From: Hyphomonas sp.
GTDB lineage: Bacteria; Pseudomonadota; Alphaproteobacteria; Caulobacterales; Hyphomonadaceae
Direction of reading: 5' to 3'
NCBI GenBank assembly: GCA_016124495.1
Contig: WGNP01000007.1
Location: 186,001-250,000, forward strand
Length of the DNA stretch: 64,000 nt
Both the position numbers and the translations under genes were made by a program. Positions 7,004 to 36,834 of the stretch are shown here, piece by piece. The notes below the pieces were generated by a model, which made no database searches, had not been told where the DNA came from, and saw only the letters and a program-made list of their open reading frames with translations. Position 1 is the first letter of the stretch. Each line of letters begins with the position of its first letter.

Positions 7004-8431
7004 ATGAAATTGACGCGGCGCCATATGCTTTTCGCAGCGGCCGGCACAGGCCTCGCCGCCGGGGCCGTCGCGGTGCAGAAAATCGGCTGGGACAGCAAGT
7101 CCTTCACCCGCAAGGGCTATGTCGCAGGCGCCCCGCAGGCCCCGCCCGGCGAAAGCAGCTGGATGAACTGGGCGGGCACCGAGCGCGCCACACCGCAGCA
7201 AATCGCCTTCCCGGAAAGCGTCGAGGCCGTCGCCAATACGATCAGCAACGCCAGGGGCCGCATCCGCCCGGTCGGCAGCGGCCACTCCTTCACGGGCCTT
7301 GCAACCACCGAAGACACGCTGGTCATGGTCAACGCCCTGTCCGGCCTGCTCAGCTATGACGCCGCGACCGGCGAAGCCCGCTTTGGCGCCGGCACACCGC
7401 TCTTCCAGGTCAGCGAAGAACTGGCCGCGAAGGGCCGCGCCTTTGACAACCAGCCCGACATCGACTCGCAAACCCTCGCCGGCGCCTTCGCCACCGCCAC
7501 GCACGGCACCGGCAATGACCTGCCCGCCCTGCACGACAACCTTACCGCCTTCCAGATGGTCACCGCCGACGGCAGCCTCCGTGATGTCACGCGCGCGTCG
7601 GATCCGGACCTGTTCGAAGCGGGAAAGGTCTCCCTCGGCGCGCTCGGCGTGATGACCGCGTTCACGCTGCGCAGCGTGCCCGCCTACCGTCTGAAGCGCA
7701 CCGTCACGGTCGAGGATGCCAGGGACTTCCTCAGCCGCCTGGGGCAGACGGCCAGCGCACACCGCAACTTCGAGTTTTACTATTTCCCCCACACCGGCCT
7801 CGTCGCCAGCATTGTGCACGATCTGACAGATGCACCGCCTACGGAGGCTGGCGCCGGCGATGACGACGAATTCCTGCAAGGCCTGAAGACGCTGCGCGAC
7901 GAACTCGGCTGGGCGCCCTGGCTGCGAAGGACGATTGCGCGGTCGCAGTTCCCAAAGGGCATCGTCGAAGAGCGCGTGAACGAGTCACGCGTCCTCCTCT
8001 CGACCGTCCGGCCGACCCGTTTCATCGAGATGGAATACCACCTGCCGCGCGAGCGCGGGCCGGAGATGGTCGAGCGCGTGATGCGCAAGCTTGACGAGCG
8101 CGGCGAAATTTTCTTCCCGATGGAATATCGCCACATCGCGCCCGACACGGCCTGGCTCAGCCCCTTCAATGCCGGGCCCCGCGCCTCCATCGCCATCCAT
8201 GCAGCCGCCGATGAAGGCTACGACTATTTCTTCTCCGACTTCGAACCGATGTACCGGGAAGCGGGCGGCCGCCCGCACTGGGGCAAGCTGCACTCGCTCG
8301 GCCGCACCGAATTGACGCAGCTTTATCCGGAATACGAACGCTTCCTCGCCTTGCGCCGCGAACTCGACCCCGGCGGAAAGTTCCTGAACGCGCATCTGGC
8401 CAGGCTGTTCGGAGAGAGTTTTGATGGTTGA
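7004..8431 (+). CDS. FAD-linked D-arabinono-1,4-lactone oxidase family protein, exported
   Basis: 475 residues. The N-terminus MKLTRRHMLFAAAGTGLAAG carries paired arginines before a hydrophobic stretch, resembling a Tat signal for export of a folded flavoprotein. The FAD-binding loop IRPVGSGHSFTG follows (His94 lies where related aldonolactone oxidases bind FAD covalently), then TLAGAFATATHGTG, and the C-terminal ALO domain with FFPMEYRHI and the diagnostic HWGKLHSL. Family enzymes oxidise sugar-1,4-lactones or related polyols with O2. The next gene, whose start overlaps this stop, encodes another Tat-type enzyme, so the two probably act together in the periplasm. The substrate cannot be read from sequence. 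Confidence 0.9.
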   Translation: MKLTRRHMLFAAAGTGLAAGAVAVQKIGWDSKSFTRKGYVAGAPQAPPGESSWMNWAGTERATPQQIAFPESVEAVANTISNARGRIRPVGSGHSFTGLATTEDTLVMVNALSGLLSYDAATGEARFGAGTPLFQVSEELAAKGRAFDNQPDIDSQTLAGAFATATHGTGNDLPALHDNLTAFQMVTADGSLRDVTRASDPDLFEAGKVSLGALGVMTAFTLRSVPAYRLKRTVTVEDARDFLSRLGQTASAHRNFEFYYFPHTGLVASIVHDLTDAPPTEAGAGDDDEFLQGLKTLRDELGWAPWLRRTIARSQFPKGIVEERVNESRVLLSTVRPTRFIEMEYHLPRERGPEMVERVMRKLDERGEIFFPMEYRHIAPDTAWLSPFNAGPRASIAIHAAADEGYDYFFSDFEPMYREAGGRPHWGKLHSLGRTELTQLYPEYERFLALRRELDPGGKFLNAHLARLFGESFDG

Positions 8432-9704
8432 GATTTCGCGCCGCACTCTGATGATCGGCGGCGCAGGCCTTGCGGGAGCAGCAGTTCTGATGACGAAACC
8501 CGGCGACGAGAGCGGACCGCGCGATCCCTATTTCCTGGGCCTGCAGGCCGCCCTGGACGAAGCCGGCATCGCCTCGCCGACGCTGGTGGTCGACAAGGCG
8601 CGCCTTGACGCCAATATCGACACGCTGATCAGCCATCTACCCTCCGGGATGGCCTACCGGATCGTCGCAAAATCCCTGCCTTCGCTCGACCTTATCGCCC
8701 ACATCCGCCAGCGCTCCGGATCCGACCGGCTGATGACGTTCAACCAGCCGATGCTCACGGCCTTCAGCAAGGCTATGCCGGACGCCGACCAGCTCCTCGG
8801 CAAGCCCCTGCCGGTGGCCGCCGCGCGCAATTACTTCCAGTCGCTGGCGCCAGAAGACGCTGCAGCCGCGGCGAACATCCAGTGGCTGATCGACACGCCC
8901 GAACGCCTCGGACAGTACCGGGAGCTCGCGCGGGCGGCCGGGCTGACGCTGCGCATCAATCTCGAACTCGATGTCGGCCTGCACCGGGGCGGGCTAGAGG
9001 CCGGCGACACGCTGAAAGCCATGCTGGAGACGCTGCGGGACTCGCCGGAGCTCAGTTTTTCGGGCTTCATGGGCTACGAGCCGCATCTCGCGGCGCTTCC
9101 CGAAGCGCTGGGCTGGCGCGAGCGCGCCAGGTCCGGGGCCTGGCGGCGCTATGGCGAGGCGCTGGCGCTGGCGGCTGAATTTCTGGGCGCCGAAACGGTC
9201 GCGGGCCTCGTCCGCAACGCGGCCGGCAGCCCCACCTACCGGTATTATCAGTCCACGGAAGTAGCCAACGAAATCTCGGCCGGCTCCTGCCTCGTCAAGC
9301 CGACGCATTTCGACACGCCCTTGCTGGAGCCTCACCTGCCCGCCAGCTTCATCGCGACGCCCGTCATCAAGTCCATGCCGCAAACCCGCCTTCCCGGGCT
9401 GGAGTTTGCGGCAGAGGGGCAGCGCGCCTGGGACCCGAACACCTCCCGCACGGTCTTCACCTATGGCGGCAACTGGATGGCCGATCCGGTCGACCCGCCG
9501 GGCCTTTCCTACAACAAGACCTTCGGTCGCTCGTCCAATCAGGAAATGCTCACCGGCGGACACAACCTGGCAATCGCACCGGATGAATTCGTGTTCTTCC
9601 GGCCCCACCAGAGCGAGGCCGTGTTCCTCCAGTTCGGCGACATTGCTGTCTTCGAGGACGGGCGCATTTCGCAGCGCTGGCCAGTGTTTGCTGCCTCGGC
9701 CTGA
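8424..9704 (+). CDS. DSD1/alanine-racemase-fold PLP enzyme, exported
   Basis: 426 residues. The start MVEISRRTLMIGGAGLAGAAV looks like a Tat leader (RR followed by a hydrophobic run). An alanine-racemase-type TIM barrel follows, with SPTLVVDKARLDANID and the presumed PLP lysine Lys83 in YRIVAKSLPSLD. A C-terminal D-serine-dehydratase-like domain ends with FFRPHQSEAVFLQFGDIAVF. In classical D-threonine aldolases and D-serine dehydratases this region supplies a His-x-Cys metal site; here the cysteine is absent, so metal dependence may differ. The ATG overlaps the stop of the lactone oxidase gene by 8 bases. Amino-acid lyase or racemase activity is inferred from fold only. Confidence 0.8.
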   Translation: MVEISRRTLMIGGAGLAGAAVLMTKPGDESGPRDPYFLGLQAALDEAGIASPTLVVDKARLDANIDTLISHLPSGMAYRIVAKSLPSLDLIAHIRQRSGSDRLMTFNQPMLTAFSKAMPDADQLLGKPLPVAAARNYFQSLAPEDAAAAANIQWLIDTPERLGQYRELARAAGLTLRINLELDVGLHRGGLEAGDTLKAMLETLRDSPELSFSGFMGYEPHLAALPEALGWRERARSGAWRRYGEALALAAEFLGAETVAGLVRNAAGSPTYRYYQSTEVANEISAGSCLVKPTHFDTPLLEPHLPASFIATPVIKSMPQTRLPGLEFAAEGQRAWDPNTSRTVFTYGGNWMADPVDPPGLSYNKTFGRSSNQEMLTGGHNLAIAPDEFVFFRPHQSEAVFLQFGDIAVFEDGRISQRWPVFAASA

Positions 9705-9792: not shown

Positions 9793-10935
9793 ATGGATGG
9801 CAGTTTCCGGACGGGCCGGCCAGAGCCGGCGACCGGCCAATGTGCGGACCCCACTTTCAGGCGTGATGTTGAGTCCTTTCTCGATACGGCCCTCACCGAA
9901 GAGTTGCGCGCTGCCGGCCGCGTCACCACCGGTCTCAAATCCGCAGCTGAGGCGTGTGCCGTTTGGCGGGAAAAGCTTTGCGAACGCGGATGGTTTGCGC
10001 CGACCTGGCCCATCGAGCACGGCGGCGCGGGCTGGAGCACGCAGCAGCGCCTCTATTTCGAGAATGCCTGCGCCGCAAGAGACGCGCCGATCCTGCAGTC
10101 ATCCGGCGTGCGCACCATCGGTCCACTGATCATCGCGGAGGGTTCGCCGGAACAACATGCGCGCTACCTGCCGGCTATCCTCAGCGGCGCGCATGAGTGG
10201 TGCCAGGGTTTTTCAGAACCGCAGGCCGGTTCGGACCTGTCGGCGCTGACGCTGCGCGCCGAACGCGACGGCGATGATTTCATCCTCTCCGGCAGCAAGC
10301 TGTGGACAAGCTTTGCCCGGTACGCGACCCACATGTTCCTGCTTGCGCGATGCGATCAGCAAAGCACTGGCGGCGCAGGACTGGTCTTTCTCCTGGTAGA
10401 GATGGACCGGCCCGGCATCACTGTGAAGCCGATACGCTTCATCGACGGCGACTGCGAGACCAACGAGGTGTTCTTCGACCGCGTCCGAACGCCGGTTGCG
10501 GACCGTATCGGGGATATCGGCGCGGGTTGGAAAGCGGCCAGGCGCCTGATGGCGATCGCCCGGGCCAACAACACCACCACCGGCCTCCTGCGCCGGGCGT
10601 TGCGTGCGGCGCAGCGCGGCGTGATGGCCCGGAGCGGCGAAGACGACCCGATGCGCACGAAGCTCGCATCGCTCGCGCGTCAGATCGATGAATTCGAAGC
10701 CTTCGAGATGCATGTCAGTGCGGGCAGGATTGGCGTCGCCGAAGCACCTGCAACTTCCGCCCTGAAGCTCATCGCGACGGAGCTGCATCAGACGATCACG
10801 GAAGCGGGCCTGGAAGCCGCTGCGGACAGCGACTTTGCGCAGGCGAAATATTTTGCGACACGCGCCGCGACCATCTACTCCGGCACCAGCCAGGTGCACC
10901 GGAACATTCTCGCCCAGGCAATCGGCTGTCCTTGA
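9793..10935 (+). CDS. acyl-CoA dehydrogenase family flavoenzyme
   Basis: 380 residues, normal for the family. Order of motifs: N-terminal helical domain with WREKLCERGWFAPTWPIEHGG, the middle beta domain with the flavin-contacting EWCQGFSEPQAGSDL and GSKLWTSFARYATHMFLLAR, and the C-terminal helical domain ending IYSGTSQVHRNILAQAIG, which contacts FAD. The family introduces an alpha-beta double bond into acyl-CoAs and passes electrons to ETF. The ArgTrp-rich opening and GW-APTWP motif resemble the branch of ACADs often linked to pimeloyl, steroid or aromatic acyl-CoA degradation rather than the straight-chain enzymes. No partner subunit is adjacent; downstream is non-coding debris. Confidence 0.9.
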   Translation: MDGSFRTGRPEPATGQCADPTFRRDVESFLDTALTEELRAAGRVTTGLKSAAEACAVWREKLCERGWFAPTWPIEHGGAGWSTQQRLYFENACAARDAPILQSSGVRTIGPLIIAEGSPEQHARYLPAILSGAHEWCQGFSEPQAGSDLSALTLRAERDGDDFILSGSKLWTSFARYATHMFLLARCDQQSTGGAGLVFLLVEMDRPGITVKPIRFIDGDCETNEVFFDRVRTPVADRIGDIGAGWKAARRLMAIARANNTTTGLLRRALRAAQRGVMARSGEDDPMRTKLASLARQIDEFEAFEMHVSAGRIGVAEAPATSALKLIATELHQTITEAGLEAAADSDFAQAKYFATRAATIYSGTSQVHRNILAQAIGCP

Positions 10936-11195
10936 CGTTCCGGCTGCGTCACCCGGCGCTAGAACCATCAACACGATTCCGCATTGTGGCTGGATCAACC
11001 CGGATGAATATGGCCTGCTGGCTCCGGCCCCTGCGCAGGGCGATAACAGCTTGAACCTGAGCGCAGAAAGCGGCCCGGTTGCCATTCCGGGTGCTGAGAC
11101 AATCGTGGACGGACCAGGCGGTGACGCCATCCGTAAAGAGACCTTCTTCACTACGGTTGCGGGTCAGGACGTCTTGATCAAGGCGCCAGAGCCTG

Positions 11196-11310
11196 CATCG
11201 GCATGGGCCGCATTCCGATAACGGGGATATCAACGATGATGGCGCGCTGGATGCGGCCGATTCCAGGACTTTCGCTGCAAGCATGCTTTCGAACGGCAAC
11301 CAGCCTTTTG
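11196..11310 (+). pseudogene. EF-hand-like calcium-binding scrap
   Basis: In one plus-strand frame the bases 11226-11261 read DINDDGALDAAD, a near-perfect EF-hand or dockerin-type loop (Asp1, Asn3, Asp5, Gly6, Leu8, Asp12), followed by a helix-like SRTFAASMLS. The frame is closed by a stop at 11175 just upstream and no start or full domain is present. The preceding region 10936-11195 is open in another frame but is not recognisable. It may be the tail of a decayed secreted calcium-binding protein. The evidence is a single 12-residue motif. Confidence 0.2.
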
Positions 11311-11329
11311 GAAGCCCGCGGCGATCGAA

Positions 11330-12350
11330 TCAGCCAATCCCCCGGGCCTTGACAAAATTACGGCCGGATTTGCGTCCGCCTCGCATGCAGGCGTCAGCCT
11401 GCTCGGTGACCGCGCTGGCGGTCATGCCCGGCTCGCCGCACGCAAGGCCGCAGGACGCCGTGAGCCCGCGCAGCGGCCGGTCTACGCTGGCCACGGACTG
11501 CACGCTTAGATTGCAGACATACTTGATCTTGATCAGCGGGTTGTAGGCAGCCATCAGGTCACGCTCCGGAAGAATGAAGGCAAACTGGTCTCTGGCATAG
11601 CGGGCCACCATATCACCTTCACCGAGGTTGGCTGTAAACAGTGAGGCGAAAACTCCGTGCACGGCGTCGCCAGAGGTCGGACTGTAAGCGTCCATCAGTC
11701 CACGGAATCTGTCGAGCCCGGCAAAGACCACGCTGTAGCCTTCGTTAGTTTTATCCGCGCGGCTGACCTTCTCGTCGAGCCGCTTATCAAAGCCGCACCG
11801 TTTGAATGCGCCGGAGACCGGATCGCGCAGAGCCTGCGCCTGAACTTCTTCAAGCTGCTCGTTCAGCGCACTGGTAAGGGTCTGTGATTTGGCAAGACCT
11901 TGGTTGAGATCGCGGGCCGGTCAGACATGCGCCGGTTCTCTTCGAGCAGCGCAGCGACCATAGCCGGGGGCCCCTCGTCCGAAGTTACCTCCGGAACCTT
12001 CTCGGCAAGGTGTCCAGCGAAGTCGTGAAGGCATCGTTCTGCTTGAGGCCTTTCTCGATGATCTAGAGCACCGCGCCAATCTCGTTGCCGATCGCCAGGC
12101 GAATGCCTTGCGTCGTGAAAGTCGCCGTATGCTCGACCAGGTATTCCTGAAACAGGGAATAGATGTCTTAGGGGCTCAGCGGCTCTTTGAGCTGAAGAAG
12201 GCTGTTGATCGCGGCCACCAGATCTTCATCCGAACCGGTCGGATAGGCAAACAGGACGGCGCAGGCATTCGGGTAGGGTGCCGTGTGATACTTGTTCGTC
12301 ATATTGAAGACGCAGATCGCCGCCTGGCAAACTTCCCGAAACGAGCGCTG
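11330..12350 (-). pseudogene. inactivated diguanylate cyclase (GGDEF) gene, frameshifted
   Basis: Pieces of one protein appear in different minus-strand frames. Around 12170-12350 the translation includes MTNKYHTAPYPNACAVLFAYPTG and a following EDLVAAINSLLQ, the N-terminal domain found before GGDEF domains in many alphaproteobacterial cyclases. Around 12060-12120 a broken frame reads GIRLAIGNEIGAVL. From 11731 to 11330 a GGDEF-like domain reads FAGLDRFRGLMDAYSPTSGDAV and RYARDQFAFILPE, where the catalytic GGDEF signature has become ARDQF, so even this part could not make c-di-GMP. Several frameshifts and stops separate the parts. No plus-strand gene explains the region. Confidence 0.6.
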
Positions 12351-29334: not shown

Positions 29335-30969
29335 ATGCTGCGGATTTCCGAACTCAAGCTTCCTCTCGACCATGCCCCGGCAGAGCTGCCCGCGGCGATC
29401 GCGGCCCGGCTTGGCGTCGGCGCCGATGAGCTGCTGCACTGGTCAGTCTGGAAACGGGCCCACGACGCCCGGCGCAAGTCGGCCATCCTGAAAACCTATA
29501 TCGTGGACGTCGTGCTGCGCGACGAACCTTCTGCTCTCCGGCGGATGAGCGGCGATCCCCACGTGCGCCCCACACCCGACACGGCCTATCGCCCCCCCGC
29601 GGCGCCGCCGCGCCCTTCCCGGCTGCGTCCGGTCGTCATCGGCGCGGGCCCCTGCGGCCTGTTCGCAGGCCTGATTCTGGCCGAGCTGGGCCTGCGCCCG
29701 ATCATCCTCGACCGCGGCAAGGTGGTCCGGGAGCGGACCCAGGATACCTGGGGCCTCTGGCGCCGCAGCCAACTCGATCCGGAGTCCAACGTCCAGTACG
29801 GCGAAGGCGGCGCCGGCACATTCTCAGACGGCAAGCTCTACAGCCAGATCAAGGACCCGCGCTTTCTCGGCCGGAAGGTGCTCACCGAATTTGTGGCCGC
29901 CGGTGCCCCTCCGGAGATCCTCACCGATGCCCACCCGCATATCGGCACCTTCCGGCTGGTGACCATGGTCGAAAGCCTGCGCGCCAAGATCGAGGCGCTC
30001 GGCGGGGAATACCGTTTCCAGCAACGCGTGACCGATGTGGAACTCAGCCGCAGCCCGGACGGGACGCATGTGCTGCGCGGCGTACACCTGCACACGGGCG
30101 AATTCCTTGAAGCCGCGCAGGTCGTTCTGGCCGTCGGGCATTCGTCACGCGACACGTTCGAGGCCCTCTACAATCGCGGGGTCCATATCGAGGCCAAGCC
30201 GTTCTCAATCGGCTTCCGCATCGAGCATCCGCAGTCCTGGATCGACAAGGCGATGTTCGGCGCCTGCGCCGGTCATCCTGATCTCGGCGCGGCGGCCTAT
30301 TCGCTGTCCCATCATGCCGCCAATGGCCGGACCGCCTACAGCTTCTGCATGTGCCCGGGCGGCACCGTGGTGGCCGCCGCGTCGGAGCCCGGCCGCCTCG
30401 TCACCAACGGCATGAGCCAGTACTCACGCAACGAGCGCAACGCCAATGCCGGCTTCGTCGTCGGCATTTCACCCGCCGACTATCCCGGCGATCATCCGCT
30501 CGCCGGAATCGCGCTTCAGCGCGATCTTGAAGCCCGTGCCTTTGCTGCCGGCGGGCGTGATTACTTCGCGCCCGGCCAGCGCGTCGCCGACTTTCTGGCA
30601 GGCCGCGCCTCTACCGCCCTGGGCCCGGTCACGCCAAGCTACCGGCCCGGCGTCCGCCCGGCGGACCTGGCGGCGCTGATGCCGGACTATGTGATCGAGG
30701 CGATGCGCGAAGCGCTGCCGGTCTTCGGCCGGAAAATTCCGCGCTACGATGATCCGGACGCCTTGCTGACGGGCGTCGAAACCCGCACCTCTTCCCCCGT
30801 CCGCATTACGCGCCGAGCGGATTTCCAGAGCCTCAACGTGCGCGGCCTCTACCCCGCCGGCGAAGGTGCAGGCTATGCGGGCGGCATCCTGTCCGCCGCT
30901 GTGGACGGCATAAAAGTCGCCGAAGCCGTCGTCCGCGCCATGGCGAGCGAAGCGGCTTTTCAGTCTTGA
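29335..30969 (+). CDS. COG2509-type FAD-dependent dehydrogenase
   Basis: 544 residues. An N-terminal domain of about 85 residues (ISELKLPLDHAPAELPAAI, SVWKRAHDARRK) typical of this family precedes the dinucleotide fold VVIGAGPCGLFAGLILAELGL. Further family blocks are NVQYGEGGAGTFSDGKLYSQI, AHPHIGTFRLVTMVESLR and the C-terminal GLYPAGEGAGYAGGILSAA, which binds FAD. The family is widespread but its substrate is not established. It stands alone, 230 bases upstream of selA; no functional link to selenium is evident. Confidence 0.85.
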   Translation: MLRISELKLPLDHAPAELPAAIAARLGVGADELLHWSVWKRAHDARRKSAILKTYIVDVVLRDEPSALRRMSGDPHVRPTPDTAYRPPAAPPRPSRLRPVVIGAGPCGLFAGLILAELGLRPIILDRGKVVRERTQDTWGLWRRSQLDPESNVQYGEGGAGTFSDGKLYSQIKDPRFLGRKVLTEFVAAGAPPEILTDAHPHIGTFRLVTMVESLRAKIEALGGEYRFQQRVTDVELSRSPDGTHVLRGVHLHTGEFLEAAQVVLAVGHSSRDTFEALYNRGVHIEAKPFSIGFRIEHPQSWIDKAMFGACAGHPDLGAAAYSLSHHAANGRTAYSFCMCPGGTVVAAASEPGRLVTNGMSQYSRNERNANAGFVVGISPADYPGDHPLAGIALQRDLEARAFAAGGRDYFAPGQRVADFLAGRASTALGPVTPSYRPGVRPADLAALMPDYVIEAMREALPVFGRKIPRYDDPDALLTGVETRTSSPVRITRRADFQSLNVRGLYPAGEGAGYAGGILSAAVDGIKVAEAVVRAMASEAAFQS

Positions 30970-31200: not shown

Positions 31201-32592
31201 ATGAGCACTCTCTTGAGACAGTTGCCTCAGGTGGACGCGCTGCTCGCAACCCCGGGCATGGCCGGGTTGCTGAGCGCCTATTCGCGCCAGGAAGTGGCCG
31301 ATACCCTTCGCTCAGCGCTGCAGGCTCTTCGCGCAGACCTGAAAGCTGGCCACCTGAAGCAGCTTCCGGACTTTGAAAGCGAAGCTTTTGCGCGAAGCCT
31401 TGGTGACAGGATTGAAGCGGAGCGTCAGCCGAATCTAAGGCCTGCGATCAACGCGACCGGAATCATCGTTCACACCAACCTCGGGCGCGCCCGCCTTGCA
31501 CCTGAGGCGCTCGCCGCAATACAGGCTGTCGGCGCCGATCATTCAAATCTCGAACTGGATCTGGACACAGGACGGCGCGGCTCGCGCCACACGCATGTCG
31601 AGCGTCTCATCTGCGAGCTTACCGGTGCTGAAGCGGCCCTGGTTGTGAACAATTGCGCCGCGGCGGTCCTCCTCAGCCTTATGGCCACCGCGCAGGGCCG
31701 GAAAGTGGTCGCTTCACGAGGTGAACTGATCGAGATCGGCGGAGCGTTCCGTCTGCCCGATGTCATTCAGCAAAGCGGCGCGATCCTCAGGGAAGTCGGC
31801 GCGACAAACAAGACACGTGCGAAGGACTACGCAGAGGCCATCGATCCGGACACGGCCGTCCTTCTGAAAAGCCATACGAGCAATTACCAGATTGTCGGTT
31901 TCACCCATACGCCAGGACGTGACGAACTCGCGGCGCTGGCGCACGCCACCGGCACGATCCTGATGGAAGACCTTGGCAGCGGCGTCCTTGTCGATCTGTC
32001 TCCTTACGGCCTGCGCAATGAGCCTGTTGTGTCCGATGTCCTGGCATCTGGCGTCGATATCGTGATGTTCTCAGGCGACAAGCTTCTCGGCGGCCCTCAG
32101 TGCGGCATCATCGCAGGACGCGCTGAACTCATCCGGGGTCTGAAGACCCATCCGCTCAGCCGGGCCGTCCGCATCGACAAGCTCTCGCTCGCCGCACTCG
32201 AGGCGACACTCCGCCTCTACCGCGCGCCGCATGATCCTTTTTGCAGCGTGCCCGTGCTGCGCGCAATTTCCCAGCCCATCGCCGACGTGCGTGCGCGCGC
32301 GGAAAAGCTTGCCGCAGCGCTGAACGGGTCTGGATTTGAGGATGTCAGTTCCATTCCGAGTGAGGCGTTTGTAGGTGGCGGCTCGCTTCCGCAACAGCAC
32401 CTGAAAAGCTATGCTGTCTCGATCGGTATTCCGCCTTATACGCCGGACGCGCTGGCCGCCGCCTTGCGCAAGGCGCGCCCGCCCGTAATCGGCATGATCC
32501 GAAACGACCGGTTTCTGATGGACGCGCGTACCCTGACAGACGGCGAAGTCACTGCGGTTGTCGAGGCCTTTCGCGGGTTGCGATCCCGGTGA
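31201..32592 (+). CDS. selA: L-seryl-tRNA(Sec) selenium transferase
   Basis: 463 residues, the family's normal length. SelA uses PLP to convert seryl-tRNA(Sec) and selenophosphate to selenocysteinyl-tRNA(Sec). Hallmarks: N-terminal tRNA-binding helices, RPAINATGIIVHTNLGRARL, the glycine-rich ALVVNNCAAAVLLSL, SRGELIEIGGAFRLPDV and the PLP lysine Lys294 in MFSGDKLLGGPQCGII. selB begins in its stop codon and the tRNA-Sec gene follows selB, so the whole decoding set is clustered except selD, which must be elsewhere. Confidence 0.97.
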   Translation: MSTLLRQLPQVDALLATPGMAGLLSAYSRQEVADTLRSALQALRADLKAGHLKQLPDFESEAFARSLGDRIEAERQPNLRPAINATGIIVHTNLGRARLAPEALAAIQAVGADHSNLELDLDTGRRGSRHTHVERLICELTGAEAALVVNNCAAAVLLSLMATAQGRKVVASRGELIEIGGAFRLPDVIQQSGAILREVGATNKTRAKDYAEAIDPDTAVLLKSHTSNYQIVGFTHTPGRDELAALAHATGTILMEDLGSGVLVDLSPYGLRNEPVVSDVLASGVDIVMFSGDKLLGGPQCGIIAGRAELIRGLKTHPLSRAVRIDKLSLAALEATLRLYRAPHDPFCSVPVLRAISQPIADVRARAEKLAAALNGSGFEDVSSIPSEAFVGGGSLPQQHLKSYAVSIGIPPYTPDALAAALRKARPPVIGMIRNDRFLMDARTLTDGEVTAVVEAFRGLRSR

Positions 32593-34460
32593 CGCCGTGT
32601 CCTGTCGTCGTGATCGGGCATGTCGATCATGGCAAGACCACACTCGTGCGTGCGCTGACGGGTATCGACACTGACAGGTTGCCTGAGGAGAAGGCCCGGG
32701 GTCTCTCCATCACCGCAGGGTTTGCCTATCGCCGGTATGGGGACGCCGTAATCGACCTGATCGATGCACCAGGACATGAGAATTTCATCCGCGCGATGGT
32801 GTCCGGTGCCTCGGGCGCCCGGGCAGCCTTGCTCGTCCTGTCTGCCACCGACGGCGTCCAGCCGCAAACACGCGAACACATCCAGATCGTTGACGCCCTC
32901 GGAATATATCCAGGCTTGATTGCGCTGACTAAGGCAGATCTGGTCGCCAGCGCAGAACGGGAGAAGCGCACAGCTGACCTGCGCGCGGCGCTTGCCGGAA
33001 CCTCATTCCGGGACGCACCGATGATCCTTTGCTCGGCAGTAACCGGCGAAGGACTGGAGAACCTCCACGGGGCGCTCGAAGGCCTGTCCGGATTGCCTGT
33101 GGCGCCCGGGCCGCCAGGCGTCTTCCTGGCGATAGACCGCGTCTTCGTCTCCGAGGGGCACGGCGTAGTCGTGACCGGAACCCTGTTGGGTGGTTCACTG
33201 AGACCCGAAGACGAACTCGTGCTCGCTTCCAGCGCTCAGGTTGTGACCATCCGCCGGATTCAGGTCCGGGGCTGCGATGTTCCGGAAGCTCAGGCGGGGG
33301 AGCGTACGGCGCTGAACCTGCGGGCCATTGCATCCGGCGAAGTCAAACCGGGCGACATTCTCTGCTCACCGGGCACCTGCTCTGCGTCGCTGAATACAGA
33401 TGTAGTGATCGAAATTCCGCTGTCGGCCAGCCGTGCTCTTCGGCATATGGAAGACGTCCGTATACTGTACGCGACGGCCCACGCTGCTGCGACCGTCCGT
33501 TTGCTGGACGCAAAGCAGATCGGGCCCGGTGAGAAGGGATTTGCCCAGCTGCGTTTCGCAGCGCCCGTCACTGCATTTGCCGGGCAACGCGCGATCCTGC
33601 GCAGCTTCTCGCCTCAGCAGACCCTGGGCGGCGCCGTCGTTCTCGATCCGGCGGCTGCGCCGGTGAAGGCTGGCAGGGCTTTGCGGCTGGCGACCCTCAG
33701 GGCCGCCGAGCCTGGAGACGTACCGGCGCTGGCCGGCGCGCTGGCTGAGGAACATGGCGGCTGCGTGCGTCTGGAGGACATCTCGCGGTTGGCGCGCGCC
33801 CCGGTCAGCCAGGTCAGGGCAAGACTGGGCGACGGGTTTATCGAGATCGCTGAGGGGGTTGCTGCGACAGCGGCGGCCGGCGGGCTTGCAGTGGAAGGCT
33901 ACCGGGCACGCCTTTCGGCCTTTCACCGGGCGAACCCTTTGAAGCTGCGTGCTCTGCGGTCAGATATCACAGATGCCCGGCTGCCCCCTGCTCTGGCGCA
34001 ACATGCCGAAACAGCGCTCGCCGCGGCCGGGACGGTTCGCCTTTCTGGTGCGTATGCGGCGCTGGCAGGACATGATCCTTCAGATCACCTGACACCGGAA
34101 AACGCGGCGCGCATGGAAGCCTTGACCCGCGAACTCGCATCGGCCGGTCTCGCGCCTGCAGGGATCGATGTGCTGATGCGGGCGCCCGGCGATGAAGACC
34201 TGATCGCGCTGCTGATCGAAGCCGGAACGGTCATCCGGCTGTATAATGTCTCGTTGAAACAGACGATCCTCTTCCATGCCGACGCAGTGCGAGACGCTGC
34301 GCGGATCCTGAGGGAGAGCTTTCCGGGCGAAGCGGCGTTTACAACCGGGGAGGCGCGCATAGCCCTGCGCACCAGCCGGAAATACATTGTTCCGCTGCTC
34401 GAACATTTCGACGCGGCCGGCATAACCCGGCGGAAGGGTGACACACGCTACACGGTCTGA
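32589..34460 (+). CDS. selB: selenocysteine-specific elongation factor SelB
   Basis: 623 residues from a GTG that overlaps the selA stop (GTGA). The EF-Tu-like GTPase domain has G1 GHVDHGKTTLV, the G3 segment DAPGHENFI and G4 TKAD. Beta-barrel domains II-III follow, then a C-terminal set of winged helices (about residues 375-623) ending FTTGEARIALRTSRKYIVPLL and EHFDAAGITRRKGDTRYTV, which binds the SECIS hairpin in the mRNA. SelB delivers Sec-tRNA(Sec) to UGA codons next to a SECIS. A client gene with in-frame TGA lies 1.9 kb downstream. Confidence 0.97.
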   Translation: MTPCPVVVIGHVDHGKTTLVRALTGIDTDRLPEEKARGLSITAGFAYRRYGDAVIDLIDAPGHENFIRAMVSGASGARAALLVLSATDGVQPQTREHIQIVDALGIYPGLIALTKADLVASAEREKRTADLRAALAGTSFRDAPMILCSAVTGEGLENLHGALEGLSGLPVAPGPPGVFLAIDRVFVSEGHGVVVTGTLLGGSLRPEDELVLASSAQVVTIRRIQVRGCDVPEAQAGERTALNLRAIASGEVKPGDILCSPGTCSASLNTDVVIEIPLSASRALRHMEDVRILYATAHAAATVRLLDAKQIGPGEKGFAQLRFAAPVTAFAGQRAILRSFSPQQTLGGAVVLDPAAAPVKAGRALRLATLRAAEPGDVPALAGALAEEHGGCVRLEDISRLARAPVSQVRARLGDGFIEIAEGVAATAAAGGLAVEGYRARLSAFHRANPLKLRALRSDITDARLPPALAQHAETALAAAGTVRLSGAYAALAGHDPSDHLTPENAARMEALTRELASAGLAPAGIDVLMRAPGDEDLIALLIEAGTVIRLYNVSLKQTILFHADAVRDAARILRESFPGEAAFTTGEARIALRTSRKYIVPLLEHFDAAGITRRKGDTRYTV

Positions 34461-34501
34461 GTTTGACGCAGGCCCCGGCCGCGTTACTGTGGCCATGTCT
34501 T

Positions 34502-34593
34502 GGAGGTGACTGGAGTCTGGTGGCTTCCCTGGTCTTCAAAACCACGGACACGCCAACACGGCGTGTGGTGGGTTCGATTCCCATCCACCTCCG
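34502..34593 (+). tRNA. selC: tRNA-Sec (UCA anticodon)
   Basis: A 92-base tRNA with the features of bacterial tRNA-Sec. The long acceptor stem is GGAGGTG with CACCTCC (an eighth pair would be A-C), discriminator G. The anticodon loop CTTCAAA has anticodon TCA reading UGA. The variable arm is very long, ACACGCC paired with GGCGTGT, and the T arm is GTGGG-TTCGATT-CCCAT. The 3' CCA is not encoded (CCG follows). It starts 41 bases after the selB stop and ends 75 bases before the thioredoxin-fusion gene. One anticodon-stem pair is C-C mismatched. Confidence 0.95.
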
Positions 34594-34668
34594 CCGCGGG
34601 CGGCCCCTCTCTGGACAAAGCCATTGGCCTGCCCCCAATAAGTTGACACGAGACCACGGAGATATCCC

Positions 34669-36258
34669 ATGACCGAACCGAAGCCGGGTTTCTCCCTGAA
34701 ATCGCTGGCCGGAGGTACTCACGCGTTTCCGGCCGGCGGACCGTCCCTCGTCGTATTCGTCAAGGAAGACTGCGAAACCTGCAACACAGCAGCCCCCGTC
34801 ATCGAGGCCTTTCATCGGGCGTATGGCGAAAAACTACAGGTACTGATGCCGTCCCAGTCGGGCGAAGCCAGCGCCTTGTTTGCGGCGCGTCACAGTCTGA
34901 CGTTTCCGGTTCTTGACGATACGGGCTGCAAAACCTCCTTCGACTGGGACATAGAAATCGTGCCGTCCGTTTTCTGGCTGAACCCCGATGGCTCGCTCCA
35001 GCAGCATTTCGAAGGGTTTGTCCGGGCCGAATGGCAGGCGCTCAGCGCCGAAATTGCGGCAAGCCTTTCCCTGCCGCAGGCCCAGATAGACTGGGACGCG
35101 CTTCCGGCCTGGCGACCTGGCTGCGGCTCCCGCCACCTGTATCCGGAAATCTTTGCGCGTCTCAGCGCCGAGGCGAATGGCGAGCTGTTGCGCGCCCGCC
35201 GCATCGAGATTGGTGAAGCCGATGACGTCGCCGAGTTCATGTTTGACCAGGGCTTTTCCGATGGCCTGCCGCTCGTTCCGCCGACGCCTGAACGCGTGCT
35301 CAGGATGTTGGGGGGCACACACCGCGCGCCGCAGGACCTGATCGCGGTCGTACCGCCCAACATGGGAGAGGCTACCACCGAAAAGGTCGCGATCAATGCC
35401 GTCATGGCCGGCTGCAAACCGGAATACATGCCGGTCCTTATCGCCGCACTGGAAGCGGTGTGTACCGACGCATTCAACATCCACGGCGTGACAGCCACGA
35501 CAATGGGCGCGGCGCCGGTGATTGTGGTCAATGGTCCGATCCGGGACCGCATCGGCATGAACAAGGGCCTGGGCGCGCTCGGATCGGGCAACCGCGCCAA
35601 TGCCACGATCGGGCGTGCCCTGCGCCTGATCGTCGGCAATGTCGGCGGCGGCAAGCCGGGCGGTGTCGAGCGGTCCACACTCGGCAATCCGATGAAGTAC
35701 ACGATGTGCTTTGCAGAAAACGAAGAGCGCTCGCCCTGGCCGCCCCTGCATGTCGAACGGGGATTCAACAAGGATGATTCGGTCGTCACCGTATTTGCGA
35801 TGACCGGCGGGCCAGTGCACATTGTTGACCAGGAATCGCGTGAACCACGCCAGGTCGCAGGCTCCATTGGCCTTGGACTCGAAGGTGTCTTTCTTCCGAA
35901 ACTGCGAAACTTACCCGTCGACGCCCTGCTGGTCGTTTGCCCCGAACACATCGACACCCTGATGAGCCAGGGCCACTATACGAAGGCTGAGCTGCGCGCG
36001 CGGATCCAGGAGGTGACGTCGCGCCCGCTGAGCGAGATGGTCGCGAGCGACACATCGGGCGCCGGAATACCAAAGGCGACTGCGGAGAAGATGGGGGCGG
36101 AGAAACTCAGGGCGTCAGCGCCGAAGTTTGCGGGTGAGGAATACATTCATATCGTGGTCGCCGGATCCGACGCCGGCAAGTTCAGTTCGGCCTTTCACGG
36201 CTGGGCAACGGGCGAGATCGGATCGCAGTCGGTCTCGCGAAAGATCGATTTGGGCTAG
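34669..36258 (+). CDS. thioredoxin-fold fusion protein of the selenoprotein locus
   Basis: 529 residues. The first 125 or so form a thioredoxin/TlpA-like domain: LVVFVKEDCETCNTAAPVI carries the redox pair Cys35-x-x-Cys38, and VPSVFWLNPDG has the cis-proline-type region. A linker has PGCGSRHLYPEI (Cys152-Gly-Ser), which resembles the UGSC motif of the next gene with Cys in place of Sec. The remaining 350 residues are a large conserved-looking domain (FDQGFSDGLPLVPPTPERV, GGGKPGGVERSTLGNP, LVVCPEHIDTLMSQGHYTK) that I cannot assign. No signal peptide. It lies between tRNA-Sec and the selenoprotein gene, suggesting a redox partner for it. Confidence 0.75.
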   Translation: MTEPKPGFSLKSLAGGTHAFPAGGPSLVVFVKEDCETCNTAAPVIEAFHRAYGEKLQVLMPSQSGEASALFAARHSLTFPVLDDTGCKTSFDWDIEIVPSVFWLNPDGSLQQHFEGFVRAEWQALSAEIAASLSLPQAQIDWDALPAWRPGCGSRHLYPEIFARLSAEANGELLRARRIEIGEADDVAEFMFDQGFSDGLPLVPPTPERVLRMLGGTHRAPQDLIAVVPPNMGEATTEKVAINAVMAGCKPEYMPVLIAALEAVCTDAFNIHGVTATTMGAAPVIVVNGPIRDRIGMNKGLGALGSGNRANATIGRALRLIVGNVGGGKPGGVERSTLGNPMKYTMCFAENEERSPWPPLHVERGFNKDDSVVTVFAMTGGPVHIVDQESREPRQVAGSIGLGLEGVFLPKLRNLPVDALLVVCPEHIDTLMSQGHYTKAELRARIQEVTSRPLSEMVASDTSGAGIPKATAEKMGAEKLRASAPKFAGEEYIHIVVAGSDAGKFSSAFHGWATGEIGSQSVSRKIDLG

Positions 36259-36315
36259 AGACTTTGCCGGGACCGGGTATGATCAGTCGAAGTATAAGCA
36301 GAATGAGGATGTAAG

Positions 36316-36834
36316 ATGACAACAATCCTTGATCCGACCGATGAACGAAAACCCGTAGCCCGGCAGATAACGGCCAGATCCGGAACCCTGAGCGGCACAA
36401 TCGGGCTTCTGGATATCCGAAAGCCGCGCGGGAATGTGCTTCTCGATGAGCTGGAGCGCCAGATCAGGGCTGCGGCGCCAGATGTCACCGTCAAACGGTT
36501 CACCAAGCCAACGTTCACCAAGCCGTGCCCGGACGATATCCGGCGCGATATTGCGGCCCAGGTGGATTATCTGGTCGAGGCGCTGGCTGACTGAGGTTCC
36601 TGTACGACGTGCAGTCTGCACGACACAGTCTGGTTTGAAATCCAGGGAATCCCATCGGTCTCGATAGCGTCGTCAGAGTTTGATGAAGCGGCAGATTTCC
36701 AGCGCAACGCACTCGGCATGCCGGAGGCGCGGTATATTCTCGTGCCGCATCCGATTCAGGATGCAACGGACGATGAAATGCGCTCAAAGGCACAGGACGC
36801 GCTGCCTGCAATCCTGGAAGCGCTTACCCGCTGA
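36316..36834 (+). CDS. UGSC-family selenoprotein with in-frame TGA (Sec93)
   Basis: 172 residues if the TGA at 36592-36594 is read as selenocysteine. The upstream part (92 codons, good GAGGAT ribosome site) and the downstream part are in the same frame, and together read ...VEALAD-U-GSCTTCSLHD... with Sec93, Cys96 and Cys99, then LGMPEARYILVPHPIQDATD and a terminal TGA at 36832. This matches the family named after its U-G-S-C motif, described from marine metagenomes. A SECIS-like hairpin follows the TGA, and selA, selB and selC lie just upstream. Standard gene callers would stop at residue 92. The biochemical function of the family is unknown; a redox role is inferred from the Sec/Cys cluster. 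Confidence 0.9.
36595..36627 (+). promoter_or_regulatory. bacterial SECIS-like hairpin after the UGA codon
   Basis: Directly 3' of the in-frame TGA the mRNA can form a stem with arms CGTGCA (36608-36613) and TGCACG (36617-36622) around a GTC loop, with a lower TGT/ACA stem and an internal loop. The apex GCAGTCTGC closely resembles the E. coli fdhF SECIS apex GCAGGTCTGC, including the bulge/loop G and U needed by SelB. The loop is about 20 bases from the UGA, within the known range. Confidence 0.8.

Follow-up and report, generated by a model that had tools for sequence, protein, structure and literature searches.

We analyzed a 64,000-nucleotide stretch of Hyphomonas sp. DNA (contig WGNP01000007.1, assembly GCA_016124495.1; hereafter the window), in which a selenocysteine (Sec) cassette occupies positions 31201-36834. 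Five genes follow in a single direction: selA, selB, the tRNA-Sec gene selC, a thioredoxin fusion gene, and a gene of the UGSC family with an in-frame TGA (Table 1). Coordinates are positions within the window throughout, and all five genes are on the + strand.

Table 1. Features of the selABC-UGSC cassette
Feature	Position	Strand	Description	Evidence
selA	31201..32592	+	L-seryl-tRNA(Sec) selenium transferase, 463 amino acids (aa)	TIGR00474, PF03841
selB	32589..34460	+	Sec-specific elongation factor, 623 aa, C-terminal winged helix	TIGR00475, PF09107
selC, tRNA-Sec	34502..34595	+	anticodon TCA	ARAGORN; Rfam RF01852
thioredoxin/partner fusion	34669..36258	+	529 aa	PF00578 (aa 6-112)
ResA-like thioredoxin domain			CETC at aa 35-38	ResA/StoA structure matches
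unnamed partner domain	35086..36255 (as aligned)	+	from about aa 140 to 529	no named family
UGSC family selenoprotein	36316..36834	+	172 residues, Sec93	PF24696, NF041046
Sec codon TGA	36592..36594	+		TGA in 80/80 named relatives
SECIS (Sec insertion sequence) apical stem-loop CGUGCA-GUC-UGCACG	36608..36622	+		pairing count, synonymous freeze

SelA scored 579.8 bits against TIGR00474 (cut-off 267.9), SelB scored 288.2 bits against TIGR00475 (cut-off 242.25), and selC scored 73.5 bits against RF01852 at 34502-34592. The other RF01852 match above the gathering score in the genome was a tRNA-Ser and was rejected. selA and selB overlap by four bases (GTGA), and the gaps measure 42 bases between selB and selC, 74 between selC and the fusion gene, and 58 between the fusion gene and the UGSC gene. 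The gene order, shared direction, overlap, and tRNA-Sec described in an earlier, sequence-only reading of this DNA were thus borne out by the TIGR00474, TIGR00475, ARAGORN, and RF01852 results. That reading had also placed selD elsewhere in the genome, and a search of the other contigs found it there (TIGR00476, 285 bits). The selD frame spans 725 residues and contains no in-frame stop, so SelD is the Cys form. Its N-terminal half looks like Ndh, as in known Ndh-SelD fusions, and the gene adjoining selD looks like selU. The Sec-decoding trait is therefore complete in the genome, with selA, selB, selC, and selD each present. The description of the island as self-contained holds in that selA-selB-selC and the client lie together, but it is a loose term since selD is on another contig.

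A genome scan confirmed 248 relatives, of which the best 80 are those named here. A SelD gene lay inside the fetched stretch in 20 of these 80 loci, 8 of which also carried SelU. The island was rearranged in a divergent group (L066, L072, L077, and L084), with SelA and SelB in the opposite direction and, inside the stretch, a SelD-like gene that lacks the Ndh part.

In-frame TGA and SECIS hairpin

The translation of the TGA gene scored 170.3 bits against PF24696 (cut-off 25) and 165.9 bits against NF041046 (cut-off 125). It contains U93-G-S-C96-T-T-C99, which includes the [U/C]-G-S-C required of the family, and the 172-residue read-through product with a Sec-Gly-Ser-Cys motif proposed from sequence alone was upheld. 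TGA was found at the equivalent position in all 80 named relatives, none of which had an ordinary stop there. In a set of 200 related genomes that includes the window's own, 35 bear the family, and the site was TGA in 33 of these, again with the window's own among them; G173 had a Cys codon, and from G103 two pieces were recovered, neither of which spans the Sec site. Among 15 distant relatives, the site was a Cys codon in 10 and TGA in 5. Two alignments were picked for spread from the sequences available (A1, 38 rows; A2, 32 rows). In the 38-row UGSC alignment, 29 of 92 columns upstream of the site and 37 of 79 downstream were invariant, in agreement with the expected conservation of the downstream half. 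The sequence-only reading had named ordinary-stop homologues, absence of selD, and lack of conservation after the TGA as findings that would speak against it, and none of the three was encountered.

Synonymous sites were frozen at codons +4 to +10 after the TGA in 81 genes. The top six-codon window scored 0.70, and windows elsewhere had a mean of 0.12 (standard deviation 0.08, maximum 0.33). The Ser codon at +7 was AGT in 81/81 genes, and AGT accounts for 4% of Ser codons elsewhere in the same genes. The stem was paired in 240/240 cells, counted over the 40 distinct sequences of the 81 stretches, and its sole variable pair was GC, GU, or AU. In a shuffle test, the covariation score and cells paired were equalled in 1 of 500 shuffles. 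Pairs changed on both sides and pair types were equalled in 231 of 500, leaving two of five measures not above the shuffles. Codons +1 to +13 taken as a block did not differ significantly from the remainder (p 0.11), and the peak at +4 to +10 in the sliding-window scan was picked out after this block test. The gene thus combines an in-frame TGA with a SECIS just 3' of it, as expected of a selenoprotein gene. The mechanical list of open reading frames closes the frame at the TGA, but a genuine stop, with the gene being a pseudogene or two genes, was rejected as having practically no chance, given the retention of the TGA and the downstream protein in 80/80 relatives, the frozen hairpin, and the Cys at the Sec site in 10 of 15 distant homologues. 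These comparisons confirmed at the sequence level the assignment of the TGA as a Sec codon read through to a 172-residue protein. A second Sec inside the thioredoxin domain was also considered and rejected, as CxxC was found wherever that stretch was present.

Partner domain and inheritance of the cassette

The C-terminal part of the fusion protein, here called the partner domain, matched no Pfam or NCBIfam family, and its sequence profile found no credible relative in the PDB. Foldseek searches with the 529-aa model gave only thioredoxin-type matches among the top 50 listed and none for the partner fold. This domain is a constant companion of UGSC. It adjoins or is fused to UGSC in 15/15 distant loci, comprising nine plasmids (bacteria and haloarchaea) and six genome loci. 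Among the 80 near loci, it was absent only in L056 and L109, whose UGSC begins at most 5 bases from a contig end, and only part of it was present in L043 and next to contig ends, e.g., L106 and L089. Partner and UGSC are fused in one frame in L129 (Cys) and L130 (TGA). Statements on published work refer to the parts of the cited sources drawn on here; within these, the UGSC/Unknown_1 fusion described by Zhang and Gladyshev in 2008 (PMC2398784) possibly corresponds to these fused proteins, in which case the partner may be Unknown_1. The window differs in that the partner is joined to thioredoxin.

The Arthrobacter order, trxB-trxA-partner-UGSC, is that of the window with trxA unfused. The order in Roseovarius is partner-UGSC-trxB, and the partner/UGSC pair of Variovorax has trxB two genes upstream. 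A trxB-like gene was present within the stretch in 7 of 15 distant loci, three of them below the family cut-off on partial sequences; the one near L124 is 2.6 kb away. Because trxA and the partner are separate genes elsewhere, the fusion in the window looks like a joined trxA and partner gene. The sequence-only reading rightly listed the fusion gene in the island, and this needs amending in that the gene seems to belong to the client system and to be no bystander. Cys-type UGSC was flanked by two partner-domain copies on two haloarchaeal plasmids (L150 4932-7366 and L152 4924-7386), an arrangement that suggests a three-part enzyme.

Phylogenetic trees were built from the 56 of 81 sequences in which all four proteins were present (SelA >400 and SelB >500 residues). 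They were quick trees, with support given only by the Shimodaira-Hasegawa-like approximate likelihood ratio test (SH-aLRT). In the trees of SelA, SelB, and the partner domain with UGSC (the client pair), 11 Hyphomonas rows grouped with 20 Rhodobacterales rows, with SH-aLRT values of 98, 99, and 98, respectively, and all three placed Hyphomonas away from other Hyphomonadaceae. When Hyphomonas was forced together with other Hyphomonadaceae, the approximately unbiased (AU) test rejected the constraint for the client pair (p 0.002) and was only marginal for the machinery (SelA p 0.070, SelB p 0.073). This test used 7 of the 8 other Hyphomonadaceae rows (L065 omitted), and the group was defined after the trees had been seen.

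The same tree signal in machinery and client favours a cassette that may have moved as one unit. The earlier suggestion that the island moves as a unit accordingly stands on the agreement of the three trees, and the AU value fell below 0.05 for the client pair but not for SelA or SelB. Alternatively, the cassette could be ancestral in Alphaproteobacteria and lost many times, in which case no transfer took place and both the patchy distribution and the odd tree reflect loss and poor resolution. The quick trees, the marginal AU values for SelA and SelB, and the lack of a clean empty site are compatible with such a history, as is a locus of Hyphomonas sp. CY54-11-8 (L043 9301-10513), which retains nothing of the island but the 3' end of the fusion gene and the TGA-bearing UGSC gene with its hairpin. 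No SelA match was found in that genome, and the downstream dehydrogenase gene is still present 7.5 kb on; this broken island is a loss caught in progress. Repeated loss without transfer nevertheless seems rather unlikely in view of three separate trees that concur on Hyphomonas with Rhodobacterales and the AU result for the client pair.

As for the empty site, L135-L138 carry the upstream flavin adenine dinucleotide (FAD) gene with no island beside it, and no other queried window gene was found within the flank of at most 1.5 kb. GC content drops across the island and remains low downstream, so it says little on the island. No UGSC relatives were found in phage records or in IMG/VR contigs, the latter searched with two conserved peptide patterns. 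Plasmid matches to UGSC came from nine records, all distant and below 60% identity. On the conjugative IncP plasmid of Acidovorax sp. T1 (L146, around 8001-9458), a TGA-bearing UGSC gene and the partner gene have IS1071 and IS91-like transposases in their vicinity, and tblastn gave no selA or selB within that stretch.

A candidate thioredoxin-fed reductase

The AlphaFold2 model of UGSC, with Cys modelled for Sec, had a predicted local distance difference test score of 90.8 and a predicted template modelling (TM) score of 0.87. It showed an alternating alpha/beta fold, in which residue 93 sits between strand 85-91 and helix 94-109. The 50 PDB matches listed by Foldseek were weak (query TM 0.35 to 0.51) and of mixed kinds, and they included azoreductases, flavodiiron proteins, lumazine synthases, and TIR domains; no thioredoxin was among them. 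The fold is thus predicted to be flavodoxin-like, not thioredoxin-like as guessed in 2008 (PMC2398784). The UGSC sequence profile found no credible relative in the PDB. Besides UxxC, residues K36, K64, D103, F122, and P146 are nearly invariant.

Six of ten distant UGSC members matched GrdB, GrdF, GrdH, or PrdB models of NCBIfam (E 0.0012 to 0.16), and these models made up 12 of the 13 non-UGSC matches of the distant members. The matched region covered positions 326-420 of the GrdB-type profiles (431-435 positions) and 128-194 of 238 in PrdB. Among 38 near members, two matched GrdF and one matched GrdB. In control sequences with the 17-residue motif kept and the remainder shuffled once, 0/6 matched GrdB-type models, as did 0/4 reversed copies; the motif alone therefore does not explain the matches. 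GrdB, GrdF, and GrdH bear UxxCxxC, and grd clusters contain trxB and trxA (PMC6778437). UxxCxxC is likewise present in the window (UGSCTTC) and in all 38 rows of alignment A1. UGSC resembles GrdB/F/H and PrdB in this motif (window and near relatives), in its linkage to thioredoxin and trxB, in weak profile similarity, and presumably in forming a two-part enzyme, and it may be a remote homologue of the GrdB/PrdB subunit.

Several observations weigh against this relationship. The NCBIfam matches were individually weak and far below the cut-offs, and chance matches were equally strong (kinesin, 0.0025, in one distant member; an unrelated enzyme, 0.0052, in a shuffled control). An unrelated allantoicase model was matched by 3 of 38 near members. 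The UGSC protein of the window itself gave no GrdB-type match, nor did 4 of 10 distant members or any of ten near members scanned singly against the NCBIfam GrdB, GrdF, GrdH, and PrdB models. PF07355 (GrdB) was matched by 0 of 48 proteins scanned, and the partner domain gave no GrdE or PrdA match in 22 members. Only 4 of 15 distant members have the third Cys of UxxCxxC, and no trxB was seen in 8 of 15 distant loci (12-18 kb examined). The flanking genes also vary between lineages. UGSC thus differs from GrdB/F/H and PrdB in the absence of a PF07355 match or of any NCBIfam score reaching its cut-off, in length (172 residues vs a 431-position GrdB profile), in its other partner, which is not GrdE/PrdA-like, and in the third Cys, mostly missing in distant members. 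Formally, UGSC stands outside the GrdB/PrdB families.

The weak GrdB-type matches, UxxCxxC, and the trxB/trxA genes of grd clusters led us to propose a thioredoxin-fed reductase. We judge the chances evenly balanced that selABC, with selD in trans, is a cassette for one known client, and that UGSC and its partner form a two-part reductase with a mode of action like that of component B in glycine/proline reductase. In this proposal, UGSC would be one subunit of a two-component enzyme, and the unnamed domain in the upstream fusion would be the other. Electrons would pass from NADPH through thioredoxin reductase to thioredoxin, fused to the partner here and encoded by a separate gene elsewhere, and reduced thioredoxin would in turn reduce the Sec93/Cys96 centre of UGSC. 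The selenolate would then attack a small substrate held in the flavodoxin-like fold, by analogy with the UxxCxxC subunit (GrdB/PrdB) of glycine, betaine, sarcosine, and D-proline reductase. This electron path, the substrate pocket, and the reductase activity are inferred.

Annotated plasmid neighbours of distant UGSC genes include coenzyme A (CoA) transferases, binding proteins of the TRAP (tripartite ATP-independent periplasmic) and TTT (tripartite tricarboxylate transporter) types, and isocitrate-lyase family members, which point to organic-acid catabolism. The neighbours in the window are a hydroxyacyl-CoA dehydrogenase, a glucose-methanol-choline (GMC) oxidoreductase, and an FAD protein, common mainly to L034-L036; the dehydrogenase is also found in L043 and the FAD protein in L092. 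Since flanking genes vary by lineage, they imply no substrate.

Alternatively, and in line with its placement in the literature, UGSC could be a generic redox protein of the thiol/selenol type, either an antioxidant or a disulfide reductase, which the thioredoxin fusion merely recycles. The UxxC motif and the adjoining thioredoxin domain agree with such a role. We consider it unlikely, however, because the predicted fold is flavodoxin-like and not thioredoxin-like, the near-invariant residues outside UxxC and the constant partner of about 350 aa suggest a dedicated enzyme, and many neighbours of distant members are annotated as organic-acid catabolism genes.

UGSC as a client of the Sec machinery

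In the 200 related genomes, UGSC was found in 35 and SelA above the cut-off in 33. All 33 SelA-bearing genomes also had UGSC, and SelA above the cut-off occurred in no UGSC-free genome; three further genomes gave weak SelA matches below the cut-off. UGSC without SelA above the cut-off was seen in G173 (Cys form) and G006 (broken island). At E 1e-100 or better there were 53 FdhA-like matches, in 51 of the 200 genomes, and none of the 53 contained an in-frame stop. Only 2 of the 33 SelA genomes had FdhA-like proteins. The genome of the window, in an assembly 94% complete, was searched for UGSC, SelD, FdhA, Rdx, and AhpC/TSA. Neither FdhA above the cut-off nor any Rdx/SelW match was found, and none of the eight AhpC/TSA matches had a stop. 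Formate dehydrogenase, proposed earlier as a client to look for, was thereby rejected as a hidden Sec-FdhA client in this genome.

The machinery could be retained for other selenoproteins, with UGSC merely the nearest client. The genome search took in the five families above, so "only client found" is a fair wording for UGSC. Given the presence of UGSC in every SelA genome, and of FdhA-like proteins in just two of these and nowhere with an in-frame stop, we regard retention for other clients as improbable. These results support the sequence-only view that the island serves mainly this one protein: UGSC is the only client found for selABC and the apparent keeper of the Sec trait in this group.

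Zhang and colleagues (2006) reported FdhA or SelD in every selenoproteome, and Sec-decoding Alphaproteobacteria with selABC and an adjoining fdhA as the sole selenoprotein gene (PMC1794560). The cassette of the window resembles the selABC-fdhA islands of Proteobacteria in joining selA-selB-selC to one adjoining selenoprotein gene, and those islands likewise show signs of horizontal transfer as a whole (PMC1794560). It differs in that the client is UGSC instead of FdhA and SelD is the Cys form. It is thus an exception in this group to the rule, as given in that source, that formate dehydrogenase or SelD maintains Sec use. We met no earlier notice of this exception in the open-licence literature drawn on.

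Taking these lines together, we suggest only tentatively, with somewhat more doubt than confidence, that UGSC belongs to the GrdB/PrdB superfamily of selenoenzymes as a branch active in aerobic bacteria, with a new kind of partner and built-in thioredoxin, and that in this alphaproteobacterial group this single enzyme, and not FdhA or SelD, sustains the Sec trait, which travels with it as one cassette. Should UGSC proteins be thioredoxin-fed reductases akin to glycine/proline reductase, common aquatic Alphaproteobacteria would share a chemistry described from anaerobes, and candidate substrates would be directly testable.

Earlier work had already described the UGSC family, the Sec machinery, and islands of selABC with a client. 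We take ABI76733.1 to be a Hyphomonas sequence. This accession is cited for the UGSC family in a 2026 review (PMC13188914). UGSC was among the most abundant selenoproteins of the Global Ocean Sampling (GOS) aquatic survey, with 255 sequences (PMC2398784), and a report of UGSC proteins in a Sec-recoding study is mentioned in PMC5330540. The literature drawn on states no function for the family. The protein of the window agrees with the known family in exceeding both curated cut-offs and in its UGSC motif. Relative to that literature, the constant partner, the thioredoxin coupling, the predicted flavodoxin-like fold as a correction, a possible relation to GrdB/PrdB, and the apparent role of UGSC as trait keeper in this group are new.

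The FAD-dependent protein gene upstream of the island (29335-30969, PF21688) has a counterpart directly after UGSC in L092 (Caulobacteraceae, 10551-12179), with 73% identity. The loci closest to the window by tblastn (L034, L035, L036, and L038) come from records titled Acidobacteria or Sulfopaludibacter, which are probably mislabelled metagenome assemblies.

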